The position numbers and the translations under genes were made by a program. From Streptomyces sp. V4I2 (GTDB lineage Bacteria; Actinomycetota; Actinomycetes; Streptomycetales; Streptomycetaceae), in NCBI RefSeq assembly GCF_030817655.1, contig NZ_JAUSZM010000002.1, forward strand, positions 1 to 64,000: DNA of 64,000 nt, read 5' to 3'. The notes under the pieces are model-generated. The model had not been told where the DNA came from. It made no database searches and was given only the letters and a program-made list of their open reading frames with translations. Shown here piece by piece: positions 15,641-45,739 of this stretch. How positions within the stretch are numbered: position 1 is the stretch's first letter; every line of letters begins with the position of its first letter.

Positions 15641-17869
15641 CTATCTGCTCCGGGCCGTTCCTAGACGCCCCTGTTCCTGGGCTCGGTTGCGCACCTCGCG
15701 CAGGGACAGCCACTGGCCGTCACCGGTGGTGACGTGCCAGAAGGCCATGCCGGTGCAGCGACGTGTGCCGCAGACGGTCTTCCCGGCCTCGTCCGCGCTG
15801 GTGAAGGTGTCGCCGCTAGGCAGGGTGATGACTCCGTCGGCGTCTACGGTGGCCGTATGGCGGCGGCCGCCGTGGTCAGCCTCTAGCTGGGTGTCCGCGG
15901 CTAGGATGCCCTCGCGCATCATGCGAGCCAGGTCGGTGCGCAGCGGGCGGCGGCGCGGTGCGGGTGCTAACCGGGTCGGAGCGGCCGGGGGTGGCGCCTG
16001 GCTGTTCGGGGCCCGGAGGGCGGGCGGGCGCAGGCCGAGGCGGCGGGGATCCCAGATCCGCAGGCACAGGCGGCGGTACAGCTCACCGCGGGTTTCGACG
16101 GCTTGCTCCATCGTGGCGTGGCCCAGTTCGCGGAAGTGGCGTTCGATGTCGTTGTCGGCGATGAACCGCCGTAAGGCGGGATGGTTCTTGCGGTAGTCGG
16201 GCGCGAGGATCGCGGCCAGGCCGTTCTCCCGAGCGTAACGGTGCCGTTTCGTTTCCAGGGGCAGGTCGTTGTAGCTGGCGTTGTCGCTCTGGCGCAGCAG
16301 GACCAGGACACCGAGGCGGGCGCGCCAGGCACGGAAGGTGACCTCGTCCGGCGCGTCGTGCGGGACGTGCCGTTCGGGGTGGTTGGCGTAGAGGTGCTCG
16401 ATCTGCCAGCTGCGCTCGGCCCCGAGGTAACCGGCGCTGATGTCTGTTCTGCCGAGGCCGGTTTCGACGTAAGCGGTCAGACGGGCCAGCAAGTAGCGCA
16501 CCTGAGCCTTGTTGTTGCCGCGCATGCCGAAGGTGGCGATCTGTTCGAAGGCGGTCTCGGGCAGCTCGGCCGACAGTAGTTCGGCCACGTCTGCGACCGC
16601 CGTGCAGTTCCTCAGGCGCGGGATGAGGCGGTAGACGTCGCTCTGGAAGTCCTTGGTCTGGACGGGTTCGTCGTTGAGGATGCGTTCGACGTAGAGCCGG
16701 TCGAGGAAGTTGGCGATTAGGGCTGCTTTCTGCTTGGCGTGCGTGTCGGTGTCGTGGGACTGGATGGCCGCCAGGATCAGGGCCATCTGGCTGCTGAGGC
16801 CGTTGGTGTCGTTGTAGTACACCGCGGACAGCCCCTGGTCGGGATAAGGGCGTTTGCATGCTTGGAGGAACGTTCGGTGATGGGCGGCCAGGCGCAGGAG
16901 GTCTTCGACGAAGCGGAAGTAGTCGTCCGGCTGGCGCAGTCCGATGCGATCGCGGTTCTTGCGCACCCAGATGTGCAGTGCGGCGTCGATCTCCTGCCCG
17001 TCGGCGGTGTCGTTGTCCTCGCCGAGGTCGGCGTAGCGGGACAGCAGGGCGGCTTTGAGGAAGGTGCGGGGTGCGTCGGTGTCGTCGCGGACGCTGGTGA
17101 GTTCGGCGAGCATGTGGCGCCACTGCTCGTTGAGTTTTTCCTCGTCTCTGCGGACGTTCGACAGCAGGAAGCTTTTCACCAGGTCGACTGGGGTCAGGCG
17201 GGCCCCGCGGTCGTTCATCGACTCGAAGATCCGGAAACCGCTGTCGCGACTGGGGGCACGGATGCCGACCATCACTACCTTCGACAGCAGCCAGTCCACG
17301 AACAGTGGGCAGTGCTCGGCTTCCAGCCGTGTCTCCAACAAGTCGGCGATCTGGCGGCTGCGCTCGTGCAGGTTCCGCAGCGACAAAGAGGCCTGCGCCG
17401 GTACTTCGTAGGGCCGGTCGCGGTAGAGGGCCTCCAGCGCGTCCTGGCGTTCGTCGATGTCCAGGCGGAACAGCAGGCGGTCGCCGTGCCCGAAATCGGT
17501 GATGACCCGCTCCAGCTTGCTCACTACATCCCGCTGTGCCCAATCGACCGCAGCCCGGTACAGGTGCAGGAACAGCAGATGCAGTGTAGTGAACCGTTGC
17601 TGGCCGTCCACCAAGAACCGCAGGCTGCGGGACTGCTGGACATACACGAACGGGCCGAGGAAAAACGCCTCCGCATCCCTGTGGTGCAGCCGCCCCTGAC
17701 GCGCCAGCGTCTCGAAGGCCTCGAACAAGTCCTCCACCAGCGTGCCGACATCCTCCGCCGACCAGGCGTACTCCCGCTGGTAATACTCGATGTGATACCG
17801 GGCCTGCCCGAACAGCTCCTTCAGATCAAACGTGTCGCCCTGGATCGCCCCTGCCGCCACCGCCACCAC
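15641..17869 (-). CDS. GmrSD-like DUF262/DUF1524 protein with RAMA domain
   Basis: About 742 aa. The N-terminal DUF262 shows QREYAW (about residue 31), FFLGPFVY and DGQQRFTTLHLL (about 88). The central DUF1524 HNH-like region has QIEHLYANHP and SDNASYNDLPLETKRH. The C-terminal about 85 residues (GILAADTQLEADHGGRRHTA ... GKTVCGTRRCTGMAFWHV) resemble a RAMA domain. DUF262/DUF1524 proteins are GmrSD-type enzymes that use NTP and cut modified DNA. The start is uncertain: several GTGs lie near 17860-17869 and the open frame runs to 17956. There is no neighbouring methylase, so it looks like a stand-alone type IV defence enzyme. Confidence 0.8.
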   Translation of the reverse strand: MVAVAAGAIQGDTFDLKELFGQARYHIEYYQREYAWSAEDVGTLVEDLFEAFETLARQGRLHHRDAEAFFLGPFVYVQQSRSLRFLVDGQQRFTTLHLLFLHLYRAAVDWAQRDVVSKLERVITDFGHGDRLLFRLDIDERQDALEALYRDRPYEVPAQASLSLRNLHERSRQIADLLETRLEAEHCPLFVDWLLSKVVMVGIRAPSRDSGFRIFESMNDRGARLTPVDLVKSFLLSNVRRDEEKLNEQWRHMLAELTSVRDDTDAPRTFLKAALLSRYADLGEDNDTADGQEIDAALHIWVRKNRDRIGLRQPDDYFRFVEDLLRLAAHHRTFLQACKRPYPDQGLSAVYYNDTNGLSSQMALILAAIQSHDTDTHAKQKAALIANFLDRLYVERILNDEPVQTKDFQSDVYRLIPRLRNCTAVADVAELLSAELPETAFEQIATFGMRGNNKAQVRYLLARLTAYVETGLGRTDISAGYLGAERSWQIEHLYANHPERHVPHDAPDEVTFRAWRARLGVLVLLRQSDNASYNDLPLETKRHRYARENGLAAILAPDYRKNHPALRRFIADNDIERHFRELGHATMEQAVETRGELYRRLCLRIWDPRRLGLRPPALRAPNSQAPPPAAPTRLAPAPRRRPLRTDLARMMREGILAADTQLEADHGGRRHTATVDADGVITLPSGDTFTSADEAGKTVCGTRRCTGMAFWHVTTGDGQWLSLREVRNRAQEQGRLGTARSR

Positions 17870-18147
17870 CCCCGGGCAAACCACCGCTGCGCCCCAACTC
17901 GGCCTATTCTGCAGGCTTTTACCCAGCCGAGACACCCACACAATCACCGGGGCCACCCACGCCCCAAGCCTCCCCCGGTTTCGACAGTTGGGGACTGCGT
18001 GCGGCTGAAGTGAGCGTTCCAGGGCTTCGATGCCGTGTGCGACTACTGGGCAGCGCAGGGGGCGACGGCGCCGGCGGCCCCCTGCCCCCGTGATCTGCCC
18101 GCCCGCAGCACGTCAGTGATGGTCCAGGCGGCTCAGCAGGGCAGCCA

Positions 18148-30860: not shown

Positions 30861-31436
30861 TCAGCGGGCGGACCAGAGGAAGATGCCTGCGACGTGGAGT
30901 CCGGCGAGGTAGATGGTCGCGGTCTTTTCGTAGCGGGTGGCGATGCCGCGCCACTGCTTGAGGCGGTTGATGCACCGCTCGACTGTGTTGCGCTGTTTGT
31001 AGGCCTCGCGGTCGAAGGCTGGCGGCCTGCCGCCCCGGCTGCCCCGTCGCAGCCGGTGGCCACGCTGATCTGCCGGGACCGGGATCACCGCCCGGATGCC
31101 GCGCTTGCGCAGGTGGTCGCGGATCGCGCGGGATGAGTAGGCCTTATCCGCCAGGACCACGTCCGGCCTGGTGCGCGGACGACCACGTCGTCGGGGGACG
31201 CGCAGGCGGGCCATGACGTCGGTGAAGGCGGGCGCATCGCCGGCTTGTCCGGCGGTGAGAACGAACGCGAGGGGTCGGCAGCGGGCATCGGCTGCGAGGT
31301 GGATCTTGGTGGTCAGCCCGCCGCGGGACCGGCCGATGGCGTGGTCAGCCGGTTCGCCGGCCGGGGCCCCTTTTTGCGGGCCCCGGCCGCGTGCTGGTGA
31401 GCTCGCACGATCGTGGAGTCCACCGACACGGCCCAC
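30861..31436 (-). CDS. IS5-family transposase, C-terminal ORF B
   Basis: Contains GGLTTKIHLAADARCRPLAF, DVVLADKAYSSRAIRDHLRK and QRNTVERCINRLKQWRGIAT, the DDE catalytic core end (K/D and ERxxxxLK motifs) of IS427/ISL2-type transposases. It overlaps ORF A, and the shared region has a run GCAAAAAGGGG on the minus strand where ribosomal frameshifting can join the two. Confidence 0.85.
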   Translation of the reverse strand: MGRVGGLHDRASSPARGRGPQKGAPAGEPADHAIGRSRGGLTTKIHLAADARCRPLAFVLTAGQAGDAPAFTDVMARLRVPRRRGRPRTRPDVVLADKAYSSRAIRDHLRKRGIRAVIPVPADQRGHRLRRGSRGGRPPAFDREAYKQRNTVERCINRLKQWRGIATRYEKTATIYLAGLHVAGIFLWSAR

Positions 31437-31732
31437 GTCAGGTCCTCATCGGCGTCTGCCTGGGCCATCAGTGTGGTGAAGACCCGTTCCCAGGTGCCGT
31501 CGACAGCCCACATCCGCAACCGGTTGTAGACGCCTCGCCAGTTGCCGTACCTCTCCGGTAGATGGACCCACTGCGTTCCGGTCTGGAACTTGAAGGCGAT
31601 CGCGTCGATCACCTCCCGGTGATCCCTCCACCGGCCACCGCGCTTCGGCGTCCGGTCCGGGAGCAACGGCTCGATTCGCGCCCACTGCACATCGGTTAAC
31701 GGCACACCCGGACCAACGACCGACTGATCCAA
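31313..31732 (-). CDS. IS5-family transposase, N-terminal ORF A
   Basis: LTDVQWARIEPLLPDRTPKRG followed by RDHREVIDAIAFKFQTGTQW, LPERYGNWRGVYNRLRMWA and VSVDSTIVRAHQHAAG (first catalytic Asp) is the standard N-terminal ORF. The frame continues by frameshift into ORF B near 31370-31380. The probable start is TTG at 31732, inside the right terminal repeat region. Confidence 0.85.
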   Translation of the reverse strand: MDQSVVGPGVPLTDVQWARIEPLLPDRTPKRGGRWRDHREVIDAIAFKFQTGTQWVHLPERYGNWRGVYNRLRMWAVDGTWERVFTTLMAQADADEDLTWAVSVDSTIVRAHQHAAGARKKGPRPANRLTTPSAGPAAG

Positions 31733-31742
31733 ACGAAACTGC

Positions 31743-32483
31743 CTAGGTCCGCGTCAGGTCGCGGACGAGGCGGGTCAGCCGAGGTGAAGGGGCAACCTTC
31801 AACTCCCGCCGCAGCAACCGCTGGTAGTCCTGGTAGCGCTTGACCGCGCAGGCCACGTTGCCCTCGGCCAGGTGCACCTCGACGGCTATCCGGTGCGGGG
31901 TCTCACGGAACGGGTCGATAGAGGCGGCGGCAAGCGACGCCTGCAGCGCGGACAGATGACGGCCCTCAGTCTGGAAGCTCTGCGCCAGCGCCTCCAGCGC
32001 CTCCAGGGCGTACAGCCGTAGCTGGTCCCAGCGTTCGCGTTCGAGGAGCAGCCATTCGTCGTCCCAGCCGGGGAGCAGGACCTGGCTGAGGTCTGCCACC
32101 AGTTGGTCCCCGTCGCAGAACGTGCCGTCGCCGGACACGAGGCGGTGGGCCGCGTCGCACGCGTCGTGGAAGTCGACCGAAAGGGAGGAGGCGAGCACGA
32201 GGCTGTGGCCGGCGAGGTCGATGGCGGGGGCCGATCCGAGCTTTCTGCCCTGGCAGAGCGCGGACCGCAGATTGGCGGCCGCCCGGCAGGACGTGCAGTC
32301 CGGCCACAACTGCTCGGCGGCCGAGCGCCGGTGCGTGCCCTCACGGCGCAGAGCCAGGAAGGCCAGCAGCCGCTGAGCCCCGGTGGAGATGGCGACGCGC
32401 CGCCCCCCACAGGTGACTTGGAAGGGACGCAGGATTTCGAGACGTGCTCCTTGCGACACGCCTTTCACTCTGCGCGACGCCAT
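31743..32483 (-). CDS. SARP-type regulator, 246 aa
   Basis: An N-terminal OmpR-like winged helix (LEILRPFQVTCGGRRVAIST ... FLALRREGTHRRSAAEQLWP) and a bacterial transcriptional activation domain (WDQLRLYALEALEALAQSFQ ... RYQDYQRLLRRELKVAPSPR) define a small SARP without ATPase or TPR domains. The TAG stop lies in the CTAGG of the IS right end, so the insertion may have trimmed the last few residues. It is divergent from the protease operon, whose promoter region has 11-bp-spaced repeats of SARP type. The ATG at 32483 is chosen; a GTG about 25 bases downstream is possible. Confidence 0.8.
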   Translation of the reverse strand: MASRRVKGVSQGARLEILRPFQVTCGGRRVAISTGAQRLLAFLALRREGTHRRSAAEQLWPDCTSCRAAANLRSALCQGRKLGSAPAIDLAGHSLVLASSLSVDFHDACDAAHRLVSGDGTFCDGDQLVADLSQVLLPGWDDEWLLLERERWDQLRLYALEALEALAQSFQTEGRHLSALQASLAAASIDPFRETPHRIAVEVHLAEGNVACAVKRYQDYQRLLRRELKVAPSPRLTRLVRDLTRT

Positions 32484-32570
32484 ATGTGACTGCAACCGGG
32501 GGCATGCACCGGCACGTTGCCGGCCATGCCGCGTTGATGCTGCGCCGACGCCGTACACACGCTGCGCTCA

Positions 32571-32660
32571 CGTTGCAGGAACGTTTCTGCAACGCACGGT
32601 GAGAACGCTCTGGGAACGCCTCCACGACGCGCCCCGAACGTCCTCCGACTCATGTCACAA
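32571..32660 (+). promoter_or_regulatory. SARP-type direct repeats before the peptide operon
   Basis: GAACGCT, GAACGCC, CGACGCG and GAACGTC begin at 32603, 32614, 32625 and 32636, exactly 11 bases apart, the helical phasing used by SARP activators. Just upstream, CGTTGCAG/CTGCAACG forms an 8-bp inverted repeat (32571-32594) around GAACGTTT. A promoter would lie near 32645-32665, leaving a leader of about 130 bases before the protease ATG. Confidence 0.6.
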
Positions 32661-32793
32661 CGAATGCGAAGCGCGCCGGTGGGACACCTTGTCGCGTGGC
32701 CCCGGCGCGTCGTACAGGAGGGCCGGACCACATCGGACCGCAGGGGACTGCGTCGGAAAATCCTCGGGACACCTCGGTGCGCGGAGGCTTCGT

Positions 32794-35397
32794 ATGGACA
32801 TCCGGTCGGTGGTGCGCGGGATCGCCGGGGAGCAGGAGCTCCTCGGCAGCCCCGAGGTGCGGGTGGCGGTCCTCGACGGCCCGGTGGACGTGGCGCATCC
32901 CTGTTTCCCGGGATCGAACCTCACCCGGCTGCCCACTTTGGTGTCCGGTCCGGCTGGTCCGGGGCCGATGTCGCTGCATGGCACGCATGTCACGAGCCTT
33001 CTGTTCGGGCAGCCCGGTTCGCCGGTGTCCGGTCTCGTGCCGCGCTGCACGGGCCTGCTGCTGCCGGTGTTCCGGGAGTCCCCGGACGGCCGGGTGACGC
33101 GCGTGCCGCAGCTCGACCTGGCGCGGGCCGTCGAACAGGCCGTGGAGGCGGGGGCCCATGTCCTCAACATCAGCGGCGGGGAGCGCACCCCCCAGGGTGC
33201 GCCGGACAGCATGCTGGCGCGGGCGCTTCGGCTGTGCGAGGAGAACGGGGTGCTGGTGGTCGCGGCCGTCGGGAATGACGGGTGCGACTGCCTGCAGGCC
33301 CCCGCCGCCACGCCGTCCGTGCTCGCCGTGGGGGCTGCCGACGCCGCCGGAGCGCCGCTCGACATCAACAACTGGGGTGCCGCGTACCGGCTGAACGGCG
33401 TGCTGGCGCCCGGACAGGACATCCAGGGCGCCGCGCCCGGCGGCTCGCTCGCCTCGCTGACCGGCAGCAGCTTCGCCGCCCCGGCGGTGACCGGGGTCGT
33501 TGCGCTGCTGGTGGCACAGCAGTTGGCGCAGGGCCGCAAGGCCGACCCGCTCGCCGCGGGCCGCGCCGTGCGCGACTCCGCGATCCGCCCGCCGTGCGGG
33601 CCCAACGATGCGCCCCAGTGCCGCAGGCTGCTCGGCGGCCGGCTGAATGCCGCCGGCGCCTTCGCCCTGGTCAACGGGGAGAAACGCCCGGCTTTTGCCG
33701 GCTACCGGACGACTCACGCCGAACCGAAGGAGAGAGCCATCGTCATGGACACGAACGCCGTACACGCGCAGACCGAGGAACCGCCCGAGGCCGTGCCCGC
33801 CGCCGCCTCCCAGGCGCCCGCGGGTGCCCCAGCCCCGGCACCGCAGCCCGCGCCCTCACAGGCCGCACCCGCACAGGCACCGGTCCCCGGTGAGGCACCG
33901 ATTGCCGCGCCCCCGCCGCCGGCCTCGTGGCCCGCGCCGCCGCCCTCCTGGCCGACCGCGTCTGCGGCGGTACCGGCTGGGGTGCAGGCCTCCGTCCAAC
34001 CCGCCGCGCCGGTCGCACCCCCTCCCCCCGCCGCGCCTCCCGCGCAGCCCGCCGGGCCTGTCACAGCCGCGCCCGCCGCTGCGCCCCCTGCGCCTGTCGC
34101 AGCCCAGCCCGCGGCGCCCGCCGGCGCCGCGCCGGCCGCTGCCTACCCGGCGAACCCGGGCGTCTGCCCGTCCTGCGCTGGATGCGGCGGTACCTGCGCA
34201 GGCGCAGGCGGGCGTCCCAGCGGGGACGGTGCCGCCGCTGCTGCCCCCGCTGCCCCGCCGCCCCCTGGGAAGCAGCTGATCTACGCGATCGGCACCATCG
34301 GGTTCGACTTCCAGACCGAGGCCCGCCGGGACAGCTTCCGCCAGCAGATGCCGAACTGGGTCATTGAGGCCACAAAGGACCAGGCGGAGCAGGAGGTCCA
34401 GCCGAACATCTACGACCCCAGGCAACTGCACGCCTACCTGAGCAAGAACCCGTGGGCCTGCGACAAGCTGACCTGGACGCTCAACATGGACGCCACCCCG
34501 CTCTATGCCCTCGAGGCCGAGATGCCGGTGGGCATGGACTGGACCCGGCCCATCATCGAAGACCCCAAGGAGTCTTCGCAGCAGGTCCAGCGTCGCGCCC
34601 AGGGCGCCACCGACCACCCCGAAAAGCTCGCCCAGCTCCTTGAGACCTTCTCGTATCCGCCGGTCTCCTACGTCTACCGGACCTTCCGGGACGCCATCTT
34701 GGGACAGGCCAAGAACAAGGACGAAGACGACTTCGTCTCCCGCGTGTCGGTACCCGGAATCCTGACGGACCGCACGGTCCGGTTGTACTCGGGCCAGGTC
34801 GTCCCGGTGGTCGAGGTCAAGAGCCGAGGCCTGTTCACCTGGAACGAGACACTGCTGGTCAACGCGGTAGTCGCCGCAGTGATCGAGAAGCGCGTCCAGG
34901 AGGCACGCGAGGCGGCACGCAAGGAGGCGGAGGCGGCACACAAGGACGCCGACGCGTCCCAGTCGGCGCAGTATTCTGCCGAGGCCCAGGTCCGCGATGA
35001 GTTCGCCGGCGTCAAGGGAACGTTCCTCAAGAAGTCCGTGCGCGCCCTGCTGGACAAGATCTACTGGCAGTTCCGCAACCTCGGCCAGAGTTCCGGCGAC
35101 CGCGCGCTGAACGCGGCGGGCACCAACGCGTTCCTGGTCGGCCACGAGATCCAGGACGGCGTCCTGTCCGCGGAGCACGTCCCCGGCAGCAGCGACAACT
35201 TCTACTCGCTGAACACCGTCAGCGTGTCCAAGAGCCCCTTCTGCCGCCCCGGTTCGGACTGCCAGGACGTCGTCATGACCTTCTTCGACCCGGAGAACGA
35301 CCAGCGGGCGCCGGTGTCGTACCTGTTCACGTTCGACGTGAGCGACGAACTGCCGGTCAGTCTCGCTCCGGTCCACACATTCATCGGCGGCCTGTGA
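32794..35397 (+). CDS. PatA/PatG-family subtilisin-like maturation protease, 867 aa
   Basis: Residues 20-290 are a subtilisin domain with catalytic Asp28 (VAVLDGPVD), His62 (LHGTHVTSLL), Asn161 (AAVGND) and Ser226 (TGSSFAAPAVTG). Residues about 325-455 are a Pro/Ala-rich linker, then a Cys cluster CPSCAGCGGTC. Residues about 493-867 (KQLIYAIGTIGFDFQTEARR ... QLHAYLSKNPWACDKLTWTL) match the C-terminal domain of cyanobactin maturation proteases (PatA/PatG family, TIGR03895). No signal peptide is seen, so it acts in the cytoplasm. The ATG at 32794 follows GGAGG. It heads an operon of small peptide genes, its likely substrates. Confidence 0.85.
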   Translation: MDIRSVVRGIAGEQELLGSPEVRVAVLDGPVDVAHPCFPGSNLTRLPTLVSGPAGPGPMSLHGTHVTSLLFGQPGSPVSGLVPRCTGLLLPVFRESPDGRVTRVPQLDLARAVEQAVEAGAHVLNISGGERTPQGAPDSMLARALRLCEENGVLVVAAVGNDGCDCLQAPAATPSVLAVGAADAAGAPLDINNWGAAYRLNGVLAPGQDIQGAAPGGSLASLTGSSFAAPAVTGVVALLVAQQLAQGRKADPLAAGRAVRDSAIRPPCGPNDAPQCRRLLGGRLNAAGAFALVNGEKRPAFAGYRTTHAEPKERAIVMDTNAVHAQTEEPPEAVPAAASQAPAGAPAPAPQPAPSQAAPAQAPVPGEAPIAAPPPPASWPAPPPSWPTASAAVPAGVQASVQPAAPVAPPPPAAPPAQPAGPVTAAPAAAPPAPVAAQPAAPAGAAPAAAYPANPGVCPSCAGCGGTCAGAGGRPSGDGAAAAAPAAPPPPGKQLIYAIGTIGFDFQTEARRDSFRQQMPNWVIEATKDQAEQEVQPNIYDPRQLHAYLSKNPWACDKLTWTLNMDATPLYALEAEMPVGMDWTRPIIEDPKESSQQVQRRAQGATDHPEKLAQLLETFSYPPVSYVYRTFRDAILGQAKNKDEDDFVSRVSVPGILTDRTVRLYSGQVVPVVEVKSRGLFTWNETLLVNAVVAAVIEKRVQEAREAARKEAEAAHKDADASQSAQYSAEAQVRDEFAGVKGTFLKKSVRALLDKIYWQFRNLGQSSGDRALNAAGTNAFLVGHEIQDGVLSAEHVPGSSDNFYSLNTVSVSKSPFCRPGSDCQDVVMTFFDPENDQRAPVSYLFTFDVSDELPVSLAPVHTFIGGL

Positions 35398-35427
35398 CCG
35401 CCCCCGCCCCCACCGAGGAGCTCTCTC

Positions 35428-35616
35428 ATGGACAAGACCACCACCCCCGTGCCTGCCTCACTTCCCCTGCAGGCGCCGCCAATCTGCCGCGAACTGTGGC
35501 AGGAGCCGCAGGAGCGGCGCAGTGGCCACGGTGTGCAGGCGGCCCGCTCGGGCTGCGCGGAACTGTGGGGACCTGCCCGGCAGATGTGCTACGCGCGGCG
35601 CTCGGAAGCACTCTGA
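35428..35616 (+). CDS. Candidate precursor peptide A, 62 aa
   Basis: The ATG at 35428, 30 bases after the protease stop, follows GAGGAG. The N-terminal part has SLPLQAPPICR, aligning with the PFQAPAIDR motif of the next three peptides, and later GVQA followed by ARSGCAELWGPARQMCYARR, a Cys-containing core unlike the others. It also has an internal repeat (ICRELWQEP... and GCAELWGPAR). It is probably cut by the upstream protease; any further modification is unknown. Confidence 0.65.
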   Translation: MDKTTTPVPASLPLQAPPICRELWQEPQERRSGHGVQAARSGCAELWGPARQMCYARRSEAL

Positions 35617-35695
35617 CAGGTCCGTAGCGGGAGCAGCACCCAAGCCTCCGGCGGCAACCGCTCGCCGGCCAGTCACCAAGGGAAAGGTGAGAAAG

Positions 35696-35884
35696 ATGAA
35701 CGAGTCGTTTACGCGGCGCGAGGAGAAGTCGGCTCCGTCCGGCGCTCCGCGGACGCCGTTCCAGACCCCCGCCATCGACCGCGACCCGGTCGGGCCCAAG
35801 GGCTCCGGCGACAGCATCGACGGCGTCCAGGCCAACTTCGGCTGGGGCAACCTGCTGGACATCGCGAAGAAGGTCCTCTTCTAG
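35696..35884 (+). CDS. Candidate precursor peptide B, 62 aa
   Basis: The ATG follows AGGGAAAGGTGAG. The leader region contains APRTPFQTPAIDRDPVG, a short Gly/Ser/Asp spacer, then GVQA and the core NFGWGNLLDIAKKVLF, which would form an amphipathic, slightly cationic helix. There is no Cys and no double-Gly cleavage site. Same plan as C and D. Confidence 0.75.
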   Translation: MNESFTRREEKSAPSGAPRTPFQTPAIDRDPVGPKGSGDSIDGVQANFGWGNLLDIAKKVLF

Positions 35885-35969
35885 AGGCCGCCATGCACCA
35901 TCCGTCGCGGCAGCGGTGACGGGCGCCTGAGCCCCCGGCACCGCTGCACGGCCCTGAGAGGACACCGGG

Positions 35970-36176
35970 ATGAACAGTGAAATCCCGCAGAGCCCCACGT
36001 CGTCCGCCACCTTGCGGACGCCCTTCCAGGCGCCCGCGATCGACCGGAGCCCGCTGCCCCCGGCACGCACCGACGCCAACGCGCCGGGCGCCGAGGCGAA
36101 TTGGGAAATGCCGTGGAAGCTGATCGGCCACGGCGCCAAGGGTGTCCTGGACGCCTGGCTCTCCGGCTCGGCTTAG
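35970..36176 (+). CDS. Candidate precursor peptide C, 68 aa
   Basis: The leader contains SATLRTPFQAPAIDRSP; GAEA then precedes a core beginning NWEMPWKLIGHG and ending LDAWLSGSA, rich in Trp and hydrophobic residues. The gap from peptide B holds a 9-bp hairpin (35910-35918 with 35939-35947), perhaps an attenuator that sets the ratio of the peptides. Confidence 0.75.
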   Translation: MNSEIPQSPTSSATLRTPFQAPAIDRSPLPPARTDANAPGAEANWEMPWKLIGHGAKGVLDAWLSGSA

Positions 36177-36207
36177 CACCTCGACCCTGCACGGAAAGGA
36201 CACGGAC

Positions 36208-36396
36208 ATGAACCAGGACTACTCACCGCCAGCGGCCCCGTCGGCCGTTCTGCGGACGCCCTTCCAGGCGCCTGCGGTCGACCGGACCGCCCCGGTCGCG
36301 AAGGCCGCGGGCACCGAGAACGGCGGCGGCGTCGAGGCGGACTTCGCCTGGCTGCTGCCGCTGGCCACGAAGGCGATCGGCGCCTTCCTCAAGTGA
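36208..36396 (+). CDS. Candidate precursor peptide D, 62 aa
   Basis: The leader SAVLRTPFQAPAVDRTAP is nearly identical to that of C; GVEA precedes the core DFAWLLPLATKAIGAFLK, a strongly hydrophobic helix with two Lys. The start ATG at 36208 follows GGAAAGGA. B, C and D arose by duplication with conserved leaders and diverged cores, the usual pattern of bacteriocin and RiPP precursors. Confidence 0.75.
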   Translation: MNQDYSPPAAPSAVLRTPFQAPAVDRTAPVAKAAGTENGGGVEADFAWLLPLATKAIGAFLK

Positions 36397-36458
36397 GGAC
36401 CGCGTGCCGGCGGCGGATTCTTCCACGGCCGTCGGCGAGGTCCTGAAAGGACGGTGGC

Positions 36459-36758
36459 ATGAACGACAAGTCCGAAGCGAACGCTGCGGACTCACGTGCC
36501 CGGCTCAACCTCCCCCTGCTGGGGACGGTAGAGCGCCGCTGGGACACGTACCAGCCCTTCCTGAAGGCGGTGCGCGTCTACAAGTACAAGACCGAGGAGG
36601 AACCCGAACAGGAAAAGGTGGGCTTCCTGATGGAGGAGCCCCCGCCCAAGTCCACCTTCGGCTCCGACGTCTCGGACCCGTCCTCCTGGGACAGCCCGGA
36701 CGACCGGGGCTGGAACTGCCCGCCGGGTGAGCCCTGCACCTGGCTCGGCCCGGTCTAG
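36459..36758 (+). CDS. Small operon protein E with CPPGEPC tail, 99 aa
   Basis: Follows peptide D in the same operon, with a weak site before the ATG at 36459. The N-terminal half is basic and aromatic (RRWDTYQPFLKAVRVYKYKT); the C-terminus is acidic, then RGWNCPPGEPCTWLGPV with two Cys. It could be a different precursor, an immunity protein or a leader-binding partner; I cannot tell. RLNLPLLGTVER only faintly recalls the leader motif of A-D. Confidence 0.6.
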   Translation: MNDKSEANAADSRARLNLPLLGTVERRWDTYQPFLKAVRVYKYKTEEEPEQEKVGFLMEEPPPKSTFGSDVSDPSSWDSPDDRGWNCPPGEPCTWLGPV

Positions 36759-36765
36759 AAGGAGC

Positions 36766-36804
36766 CTCTCCCCGGCCGCCCTTCACAGCGGCGGCCGGGG
36801 AGAG
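36766..36804 (+). terminator. Strong terminator ending the peptide operon
   Basis: A 15-bp perfect stem (CTCTCCCCGGCCGCC with GGCGGCCGGGGAGAG) closes on a nine-base loop, eight bases after the stop of gene E. Confidence 0.85.
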
Positions 36805-36849: not shown

Positions 36850-37272
36850 ATGGTGGAAGCGATGACCGTGACGGATCGGATACAGGACGAACAGCACCGG
36901 CACGCCGCCGACGCCGCACGACGGTACCGGGAGGTCACCCCGCAACGGGAGCGGATCGAGGAGGAACAGGCGGCCGGGGTGCGCTTCCCCGACACGCCGC
37001 AGGCGCTGGCGGTGCGCGCCGAGCGGATCCTCGACCGGGGCGCGGTACCGCCCGCGGCGATGGTTGCCGGCATCCGCGCCCAGCCCATGGACCTGCCGCA
37101 GGCCTACGAGCGCATCATCGGCCTCGCCAGCGAACTGCAGGCCGCGAGCTTCCTGCCGCGCGGCGTACGGGCGGCCGCCACGGTGGCGCGGATCGGTCTG
37201 CGCCGCAACGGCCGCGAACTCCCCCTCGGTACCGGCTTTTTGGTGTCTGACCGGCTGATGCTCACCAATCAG
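36850..37272 (+). pseudogene. Trypsin-like protease gene truncated by IS remnant
   Basis: About 140 residues remain: a charged helical N-terminus (TDRIQDEQHRHAADAARRYR) and the first strands of a chymotrypsin-fold protease (VARIGLRRNGRELPLGTGFL then VSDRLMLTN). At LTN, where the catalytic His (usually LTNHHV) should follow, the frame runs into IS5-type transposase sequence (GFVVLPRRWKVERT). The catalytic triad is therefore absent. Its position after the peptide operon suggests an original link, but a terminator lies between. Confidence 0.7.
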
Positions 37273-37481
37273 GGCTTCGTCGTCCTGCCCCGCCGCTGGA
37301 AAGTCGAGCGCACGATTCGGCTGGTGCATGAACGCCCGCCGCAACGCACGCGACTACGACACGCCTCCCGCAGCACTCCGAAGCACACCTGAACTGGGCA
37401 CTCATCACCATGATGACCCGACGCCTGACCCGCAAAAACGCCCGCGCTGGCATGTGGAACAAGAGGATCGCCTCGGGCTAG
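37273..37481 (+). mobile_element. IS5-family transposase C-terminal remnant
   Basis: GFVVLPRRWKVERT, then NARRNARDYD and, one frame away, LPQHSEAHLNWALITMMTRR ending at TAG 37481, is the usual C-terminus of IS112/IS5-type transposases. The rest of the element is missing, and frameshifts show it is dead. Confidence 0.8.
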
Positions 37482-43889: not shown

Positions 43890-44507
43890 TCACAGCCGCG
43901 CATCGGGCTCGCCAGTGAGCAGAAACTGCACGTCGCGGCAGAACTTGTCGAACGAGGGTGCCGTAGCGCGGGCGGCCTCGAGGTCGAAGAGGGTGGCGAA
44001 GGATGGCTGGTGGGCGGTCTCCTGGTAGGAGGAGCCGCGGGGCATGTGCCGGGAGAGCCATTCCTTGGCACCGCGGATGGCTTCCGGCTCAGGTGGCGGT
44101 ACCAAGGATTCGGGCAGACCGGCCCGTCCGGCCAGGCCCGCGGCGCCGGCCAGGAACCATGCTTCGAATTCCCGGACGGCCGCGACCGCCACGAGCGGCA
44201 TGTGCCCGTGAGTGGCGTGAGCGTGCGTGCGTAGGCGTTCGGCCAGTTCTACGGCGCAGTCGTCATCCGCGTCCAGCAGGACCAGGACACCGGTAGGTGA
44301 CGGGGTGCGTCTGGTGACGATGGTCAGCGTGTTGTCGAGGACGTCGCGCCGGAGCATCCGGTCCCGGGGTACGCGGTAGGGACGCTGGATCTCGGCGTAT
44401 GCGCCGGGCACCAAGGTCGGAACAAGCCGGTACAGCAGGCCTTGGAGGGCCTTTTCCTCTCCGTGGCCTTCAACAATGGACGCGATCACCGGATACGGGA
44501 TGCTCAC
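43890..44507 (-). CDS. DUF4276 TOPRIM-like protein, 205 aa
   Basis: YPVIASIVEGHGEEKALQGL (Glu of the TOPRIM fold), TGVLVLLDADDDCAVELAER (DxD) and VAVREFEAWFLAGAAGL are the DUF4276 pattern. The ATG overlaps the stop of the ATPase gene by four bases. An AAA ATPase with a small TOPRIM-like protein is the arrangement of OLD/PARIS-type anti-phage systems; which type this is cannot be settled by eye. Confidence 0.75.
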   Translation of the reverse strand: MSIPYPVIASIVEGHGEEKALQGLLYRLVPTLVPGAYAEIQRPYRVPRDRMLRRDVLDNTLTIVTRRTPSPTGVLVLLDADDDCAVELAERLRTHAHATHGHMPLVAVAAVREFEAWFLAGAAGLAGRAGLPESLVPPPEPEAIRGAKEWLSRHMPRGSSYQETAHQPSFATLFDLEAARATAPSFDKFCRDVQFLLTGEPDARL

Positions 44508-45739
44508 CGCTCGCTGTCCTCCCCCTGATCTGCTCGCCGCGCGGAGGGCGTTGCTGGGCGCAGTTCTCCGCTGCGTAGGAGTTCGGACAGCGTCAGGACA
44601 CCGTCGGCCAGGAGTTGCCGCCCGGCTGGGTCAATGGGACCGATCACGGTGCCCGCCCCGTCGTCGCGGGCCACGAGCAGGTGCGACGGATCGGCCGCTG
44701 CGTTGTCGAGCAGGTCGGCGCTCTGGGTCGTCACCATCACCTGGGTGTTGCGAGCAGCGGCGGCCAGTGCGTCGTACAACGCACCGAGCATCGGCGGGTG
44801 GAGGGAGATCTCGGGTTCTTCGAGGGCGATGAGCGGGATGCTGCCCCTGAGCGCGCGCGGCTGGAACAAGGCAGCGAGCACGCCGGCCAGACGAAGGGTC
44901 CCCTCCGACAGCGCCCGGCGATCCACCTTGACCACCTGTCCCTCGCCGCCCAGGAAACGGCCGACGACGAAGGCCAGGTCGGCCTCACGTACTTCCACCC
45001 CGTCCAGTCCCACCGCATTGTCGATCATGGTGGCGAGATAGCCGTCGACGGTGTCCTTGACCCAGGGGTGCTCCCTCGAGAGAGCATCCAGCACGCGGCC
45101 CAGGTGCTCCCCGCTTTCGCCGAGCGGCCTGTCACCCCTTCTCTGAGGTGTGTCGTCGACCGCCCGGAGTACAGGAGTGAGGAGTTCGTAGAAGCGCATG
45201 TGGGTCAGGCTCCGGAACACCGTGCCTGCCTCGCGGCTGGTCCGGGACGCCTGCGGCAGGAGAATGTCGTCCCTCCAGGAAACAAGGTGTTCCCCTGCCA
45301 GTTCCGGGATGAAGGCATCTGCCTGGAGCCGTCCGTTGATCCGAAGCTCTTCTCTGCGGAGGACCGGACCGGGATCATCGCTGTCTGGGCGGGTTCCGAC
45401 TTCCAAAAGGTAGGCGGCTTTGAACGCCGGCCCTCTGGAGGCGGGGATGTCGAGGTCCATTTGGATGCGGAAGACGTCGGCCTGACCACCCGAGGCGTCC
45501 CGGTGGAGCACTTCTTCGAGGCCGCCCCGCCGCTCCAGCGCCCGCCCAGGCGAGGACTGCAAGGCGTCGCGGACGAATCGAATCGCGTCAAGGACGTTCG
45601 ACTTGCCTGCTGCGTTCGGCCCGGCCAGGACTGTCAACGGGCCAAGCGACACATCGCAGGATGCGATGGAGCGGTAGCTCTCCACGCGTAGTCGCGTCAG
45701 GAATACCGGTGGCCGCTCCTGCTCAGAGGCCATGACCAT
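44504..45739 (-). CDS. AAA family ATPase (OLD-like), 411 aa
   Basis: LTRLRVESYRSIASCDVSLG with Walker A LAGPNAAGKSNVLDAIRFV near the N-terminus, a long helical insert, then the ABC-type signature region LSEGTLRLAGVLAALF, Walker B PLIALEEPEISLHP and VMVTTQSADLLD. This is the SMC/RecF-like AAA_21 fold. It lacks its own C-terminal TOPRIM domain; the overlapping DUF4276 gene probably supplies it in trans. Confidence 0.85.
   Translation of the reverse strand: MVMASEQERPPVFLTRLRVESYRSIASCDVSLGPLTVLAGPNAAGKSNVLDAIRFVRDALQSSPGRALERRGGLEEVLHRDASGGQADVFRIQMDLDIPASRGPAFKAAYLLEVGTRPDSDDPGPVLRREELRINGRLQADAFIPELAGEHLVSWRDDILLPQASRTSREAGTVFRSLTHMRFYELLTPVLRAVDDTPQRRGDRPLGESGEHLGRVLDALSREHPWVKDTVDGYLATMIDNAVGLDGVEVREADLAFVVGRFLGGEGQVVKVDRRALSEGTLRLAGVLAALFQPRALRGSIPLIALEEPEISLHPPMLGALYDALAAAARNTQVMVTTQSADLLDNAAADPSHLLVARDDGAGTVIGPIDPAGRQLLADGVLTLSELLRSGELRPATPSARRADQGEDSER

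Follow-up and report, generated by a model that had tools for sequence, protein, structure and literature searches.

The genome of Streptomyces sp. V4I2 contains a gene cluster, flanked by a SARP-like regulator gene, in which one PatA-type protease is accompanied by precursor genes that share a leader tag, and in which predicted cutting after the site G-[VA]-[EQ]-A-[N/D/A] probably frees short linear peptides. The window that we analysed (the whole 64-kb stretch of DNA) is the beginning of a 110-kb contig, in an 11.1-Mb genome of four contigs, one of which is 10.66 Mb long. The initial annotation had listed a SARP gene, a protease with the catalytic residues Asp28, His62 and Ser226, a linker, a Cys cluster, four leader-sharing peptides, one more small gene and a 15-bp terminator, and we recovered all of them at the same positions, the last as a perfect inverted repeat (Table 1). 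Its proposal of a Streptomyces ribosomal peptide system built round a PatA/PatG-family protease also appears likely, and the peptides are conserved beside the protease. It had gone on to say that the locus fits neither the standard cyanobactin set nor any other class that could be named. The strict set is indeed missing, but the leader and cut-site motifs are of the cyanobactin type, and for this reason our best reading is that the locus is a reduced, PatA-only relative of the cyanobactin pathways rather than a cyanobactin cluster in the strict sense.

Table 1. Features of the cluster in window coordinates (p1-p4 and p5 all start with ATG).
Feature	Position	Strand	Remarks
SARP-like (BTAD) regulator gene	31743..32558	-	GTG start; divergent from protease gene; matches PF03704 (BTAD), 52.9 bits
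Divergent intergenic region	32559..32793		Between SARP and protease genes; presumed promoters; short imperfect repeats
PatA-type protease, 867 aa	32794 (ATG) to stop 35397	+	S8 domain 22-241; Pro/Ala linker with Cys cluster; PatG_D 496-601; PatG_C 746-863
GVCPSC motif in protease linker	34159-34176	+	Resembles precursor cut site; possible self-cleavage site
p1, 62 aa	35428-35616	+	Leader PLQAPPICR; predicted cut after GVQAA (35530-35544); two-Cys core, C-x10-C
p2, 62 aa	35696-35884	+	Leader PFQTPAIDR; predicted cut after GVQAN (35822-35836); core 15 aa
p3, 68 aa	35970-36176	+	Leader PFQAPAIDR; predicted cut after GAEAN (36087-36101); core 24 aa
p4, 62 aa	36208-36396	+	Leader PFQAPAVDR; predicted cut after GVEAD (36328-36342); core 17 aa
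p5, 99 aa	36459-36758	+	Leader-like LNLPLLGTVERR, one residue shorter than the tag; no cut-site motif; conserved C-terminal RGWNC..C.W.G
Perfect inverted repeat, 15 bp	36766-36780/36790-36804		9-nt loop; terminator-like

The protease matches the families PF00082 (S8), PF18047 (PatG_D) and PF18065 (PatG_C), and scores 552 bits against the NCBI family TIGR03895, for which the cut-off is 421. Across 66 aligned rows (the query included), the catalytic Asp28 is conserved in 64, His62 in 65 and Ser226 in all 66; the remaining rows have gaps at these sites. The protease domain is PatA-like rather than PatG-like: it matches 4h6v, 3zxx, 3zxy and 4h6w, which we take to be PatA/PagA structures, at 302-313 bits over nearly the whole domain, and 4h6x, 4aks and 4akt, presumably entries for the PatG macrocyclase, at 150-156 bits over a shorter stretch. 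In a tree of S8 domains the placement of the A-only branch is only partly resolved. The C-terminal part of the protein matches 4uvq (E = 4e-44), which by its name and length is the PatG domain whose structure was reported in PMC4259220. The initial annotation had called this region a PatG-type domain. PatG_D and PatG_C are present, but the domain occurs on both PatA and PatG (PMC4259220 describes it as homologous between the two enzymes, with a function that is not known), and here it is joined to a PatA-like S8 domain. Two other S8 relatives in the genome match the S8 part only, with 34-36% identity, and among the matches listed, alignments to at least five records of Streptomyces plasmids span 77-81% of the protease.

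We found the C-terminal part of the protease in 17 of 394 genomes of the family Streptomycetaceae (15 strong matches and 2 weaker ones), and p1 in 16. All 15 genomes with a strong protease match carry p1, the two with weaker matches do not, and in an additional genome p1 is matched weakly by a sequence with an internal stop. The hypergeometric probability of this co-occurrence (15 strong-protease genomes among 16 p1 genomes, 394 in total) is P = 3 x 10−26, uncorrected for kinship. Strong matches in only 15 of the 394 genomes mean that the system is not universal but scattered; a phylum-wide search of 296 genomes gave matches in 3. The cluster is scattered through Streptomyces and Kitasatospora and present in Amycolatopsis, and it has look-alikes in cyanobacteria.

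To describe gene content we counted features in 24 loci. This set leaves out two weaker protease relatives without p1 (L051 and L052), one duplicate (L038, the same locus as L004) and L085, a related locus that has peptides resembling p1 and the core precursors and no SARP match. It also leaves out loci from cyanobacteria, loci whose proteases are paired and loci with a separate PatG_C ORF. The gene p1 follows the protease in all 24 (23 by motif, L047 by tblastn), p5-like genes are present in 20 (19 by motif, L004 by tblastn), and a SARP relative adjoins the protease in 22, including the window, while the contigs of the other two stop within the protease gene. In L043 the SARP relative is on the same strand as the protease. 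The initial annotation had proposed co-occurrence of protease and leader peptides as a check, and had named peptides not conserved next to the protease as grounds for giving up its reading; these counts support it on both points. Among the loci with a separate PatG_C ORF (L116, L124, L126, L127 and others), PatG_C lies in short ORFs (roughly 300-420 aa), with an S8 relative encoded separately nearby, and L116 also has a Cys-rich peptide with a leader-like start close by.

Apart from the protease and SARP, no family of at least 90 aa was found in more than 6 of the 22 loci searched for recurring neighbors (the 24 without L039 and L046), by a coarse test with greedy ORF calling that recovered the SARP gene in only 11 of the 22. 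No exporter or immunity gene was recognised, and in this coarse test no transporter recurs, in keeping with the initial annotation. Genes matching the M35 metallopeptidase-hemopexin protein of L060, mostly over its hemopexin part, lie near the cluster in eight loci (L060, L042, L045, L119, L121, L123, L039 and L050).

The cyanobactin leader motif is KKNxxPxxxxPVxR (PMC3428304), and a review places PatA cleavage after the sequence G(L/V)E(A/P)S (PMC10885120). Among 127 small plus-strand ORFs up to 1.7 kb downstream of the protease in the 24 loci, 50 contain the strict form PxxxxPVxR. In three control sets the counts are 0 of 55 for ORFs of the other strand, 0 of 68 for ORFs far downstream, and 1 of 114 for ORFs upstream. 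A relaxed leader pattern is present in 96 of the 127, compared with 2, 7 and 4 ORFs in the same three controls, and the relaxed leader followed by G[VLIA][EQ][AP] in 61, compared with none in any control. The strict motif comes from the paper, whereas the relaxed pattern and the 24-locus set were picked after the peptides were known. By locus, the strict form occurs in 20 of 24 and the relaxed form in all. The window is one of the four loci without the strict form: its p1-p4 have the relaxed leader only (with PI, AI, AI and AV, respectively, for PV) and no KKN.

The tagged ORFs comprise 97 different sequences: 59 combine a cut site with a core, 22 belong to the p1 type, and the other 16, mostly p5-like, lack a cut site. 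The commonest cut sites before the 59 cores are GVEAD (20) and GVEAN (12). The last residue of the site is mostly N, D or A, versus S in the cyanobactin consensus, so that exact G[LV]E[AP]S is seen in just 2 of the 59, and in 15 of the 120 p1 relatives listed. In a profile comparison with four follower-bearing actinobacterial precursors, the core precursors gave E = 6e-6 and a probability of 85%, and p1 a probability of only 16%. Of the p1 and core-type relatives listed (120 of 178 for p1), those that have a source name are annotated as hypothetical or uncharacterized. We found no description of these precursors in the titles, abstracts and text passages covered by our literature searches, which leave out most subscription papers and may therefore miss earlier work.

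Among the look-alikes in cyanobacteria, a peptide on a Gloeocapsa plasmid adjoins a PatA/PatG-family protease, with no second protease annotated in the stretch examined, and a look-alike peptide of Coleofasciculus has a core resembling one from Kitasatospora. The cyanobactin precursor family PF19155 has no match in three cyanobacterial plasmids that carry protease relatives, and a protein search with the Coleofasciculus peptide against plasmids found nothing.

The 59 predicted cores, three of them from the window, are 10-36 aa long, with a mean charge of -0.2 and a mean Eisenberg hydrophobicity of 0.44. Their hydrophobic moment is on average 1.8 SD above that of shuffles, with a few cores below. 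As far as sequence properties go, these values would suit membrane-active helices, short of proof. Counting against such a role, the cores are near neutral in charge, in contrast to most cationic antimicrobial peptides. The computed [M+H]+ values of the predicted cores are 1720.98 for p2, 2609.33 for p3, 1860.12 for p4 and 2611.24 for p1 in reduced form. The C-x10-C core of p1 is nearly invariant (it is kept in 118 of the 120 relatives listed from a family of 178), which suggests one fixed role for this peptide rather than that of a variable weapon.

The strong conservation of p1 would also fit another explanation, in which the small proteins are not precursors of secreted peptides and instead bind or regulate the protease inside the cell, perhaps as inhibitors or activators, with the motif serving as a binding site and the hydrophobic C-termini as membrane anchors. 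The 16 of 97 tagged ORFs that have no cut site, and the lack of a recurring transporter, are also in line with this explanation. However, in 59 of the 97 a PatA-type cut site stands immediately before a variable hydrophobic tail, and at least two such copies are present in 22 of the 24 loci, so we regard the partner explanation as rather unlikely and continue to favor released peptides.

The cluster shares with cyanobactin pathways (of the patellamide and anacyclamide/piricyclamide types) a PatA-type protease with C-terminal PatG_D/PatG_C, a PxxxxPVxR-type tag, a G(V/L)E(A/P)-type cut site and several precursor genes. It differs in having a SARP, in its hydrophobic 10-36 aa cores, which are predicted to be linear, and in what is missing. 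The genome has a single PatG_C protein, whose S8 domain is PatA-like; no G protease and, as the initial annotation had it, no separate macrocyclase was found. It has no match to the PatB and PatC models (TIGR04220 and TIGR04447), both of which match the control genomes G1099 and G1086. A script search of the 97 tagged ORFs from 24 loci detected no C-terminal follower (AYDG or FAGD), the part at which a PatG protease would cut. The absence of a YcaO gene, also pointed out in the initial annotation, holds for the contig; the only YcaO of the genome is on another contig, at C3:6039444. We rejected a full cyanobactin cluster, since the second PatG_C protein, the follower, PatB and PatC are all lacking, and the cluster does not fit the azol(in)e-containing RiPPs of the YcaO class, as it has no YcaO. 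For an ordinary cyanobactin pathway whose macrocyclase and modifying genes lie elsewhere, giving cyclic or modified cores, one could cite the identical protease family and precursor motifs as well as the distant YcaO gene. We consider this very unlikely given the single PatG_C protein, the genome-wide lack of PatB and PatC, and the absence of followers from all 24 loci, when three paired-protease actinobacterial loci do have PFAGD.

Those three loci, L115 and L114 in Streptomyces (genomes G1099 and G1086) and L079 (genome G606), have paired S8-PatG_C-type proteases and precursors ending in PFAGD, and are cyanobactin-like clusters outside cyanobacteria. One protease of each pair would be of the G type. 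PatB and PatC matches above cut-off are present in the genomes of L115 and L114, and two L115 precursors reach 22.9 and 26.7 bits against the piricyclamide family, for which the cut-off is 35. According to a 2015 review, cyanobactin clusters occur only in cyanobacteria and always have two proteases (PMC4663559); automated 'cyanobactin' calls in Streptomyces (PMC8510958) and in one Saccharopolyspora (PMC10145562) appear in two other papers.

Two overlapping ORFs for IS4/5-type transposases lie directly upstream of the cluster (window positions 30861-31732), and the gene after p5 (36850-37389) is an N-terminal remnant of a gene with longer relatives elsewhere. Its tail is transposase-like in appearance and has no Pfam match. 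Relatives of this gene are found directly after p5 in L005, L041, L122 and L040, and those of L005, L041 and L122 are ORFs of 673-717 aa, putatively trypsin-like. Although the transposases and the truncated gene could mark the cluster as a decaying, functionless passenger on a mobile contig, we consider this very unlikely, because the protease, SARP and peptide ORFs are open, the gene order is kept across genera, and dN is mostly lower than dS. We compared two segments of the protease and the five small genes of the window with those of L004 and of L059, and dN was the lower value in all but one of the 14 comparisons (p2 against L059, with dN 0.241 and dS 0.231). Elsewhere in the window, a GmrSD-RAMA restriction-like gene (15641-17956) and an AbiEii-like AAA gene (44504-45739) match PADLOC families. 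A PADLOC scan of the protease, SARP, p1 and p5 matched no family for any of the four, and we set aside a reading of the cluster as anti-phage defence.

Other known systems resemble the cluster in part. The S8 leader proteases of class III lanthipeptides (AmyP type) similarly cut off a leader after an E-containing motif, as described in PMC10885120, whereas the protease here matches the PatA family. A shared lanthionine synthetase was not seen, as no large gene besides the protease and SARP exceeds 6 of 22 loci, and in the same coarse test this disfavors any modified RiPP with shared enzymes. Multi-component unmodified bacteriocins likewise have several short amphipathic peptides per cluster and no recurring modification enzyme; they differ from the present cluster in its predicted leader-bearing precursors, its dedicated PatA-type protease and the lack of a recurring exporter.

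We envisage that the PatA-only system works as follows. SARP would switch the gene set on. The PxxxxPVxR-like tag of p1-p4, altered in p5, would be the handle by which the precursors dock on the protease, and the simplest docking site would be its PatG_D/PatG_C part; with no follower, second PatG_C protein, PatB or PatC in the genome, the protease is the obvious partner for the tag. An experiment with the isolated C-terminal domain of PatG speaks against docking there: PMC4259220 reports that the NMR spectrum of a PatE precursor was unchanged and ascribes an ITC curve to precipitation, though the domain tested was that of PatG and not of PatA. The S8 domain would then cut after the G-[VA]-[EQ]-A-[N/D/A] site. 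The p2-p4 cores, of 15-24 aa, would form amphipathic helices, likely acting jointly on membranes as a multi-component antimicrobial, and p1 would give a conserved peptide probably closed by one disulfide. The product of p5, with its tag-like start and no cut site, may be an accessory protein by analogy with PatB, which in Gloeothece carries the leader tag. We keep this as an analogy only, having rejected p5 as a PatB homolog on its weak score against the PatB profile (probability 9%). Export could depend on genes elsewhere or on the membrane activity of the peptides themselves.

The linker between the S8 and C-terminal domains may itself be a substrate. A motif G[VILA]x[PA]S[CS] is present in 64 of 120 homolog linkers, compared with a mean of 1.9 in shuffled linkers, and among the 14 of 24 loci that could be parsed, G[VL]x[PA]SC is present in 11 and absent from 3. 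Three cyanobacterial proteases have AVTPS, SVTPS and AISPS in their linkers. The resemblance of the motif to the precursor cut site suggests self-processing, in which the protease may cut its own linker at GVCPSC.

More tentatively, Actinobacteria and cyanobacteria might have in common a class of PatA-only peptides, in which the tag docks on the C-terminal domain of PatA, the protease cuts its own linker at GV(R/C)PSC and so frees that domain, and the products are teams of linear membrane-active peptides; we hold this to be possible, if somewhat doubtful. If true, the PatA-only class would be a stripped-down relative, perhaps an ancestor, of the macrocyclising cyanobactin pathways, one in which the A-type protease, its C-terminal domain and the leader tag persist without a follower, a second PatG_C protein, PatB or PatC. 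The role of the C-terminal domain, a question raised in PMC4259220, would be directly testable in this simple system. The 178 p1-type and 107 core-type proteins found, including the copies in the window, indicate a sizeable unannotated family of peptides.
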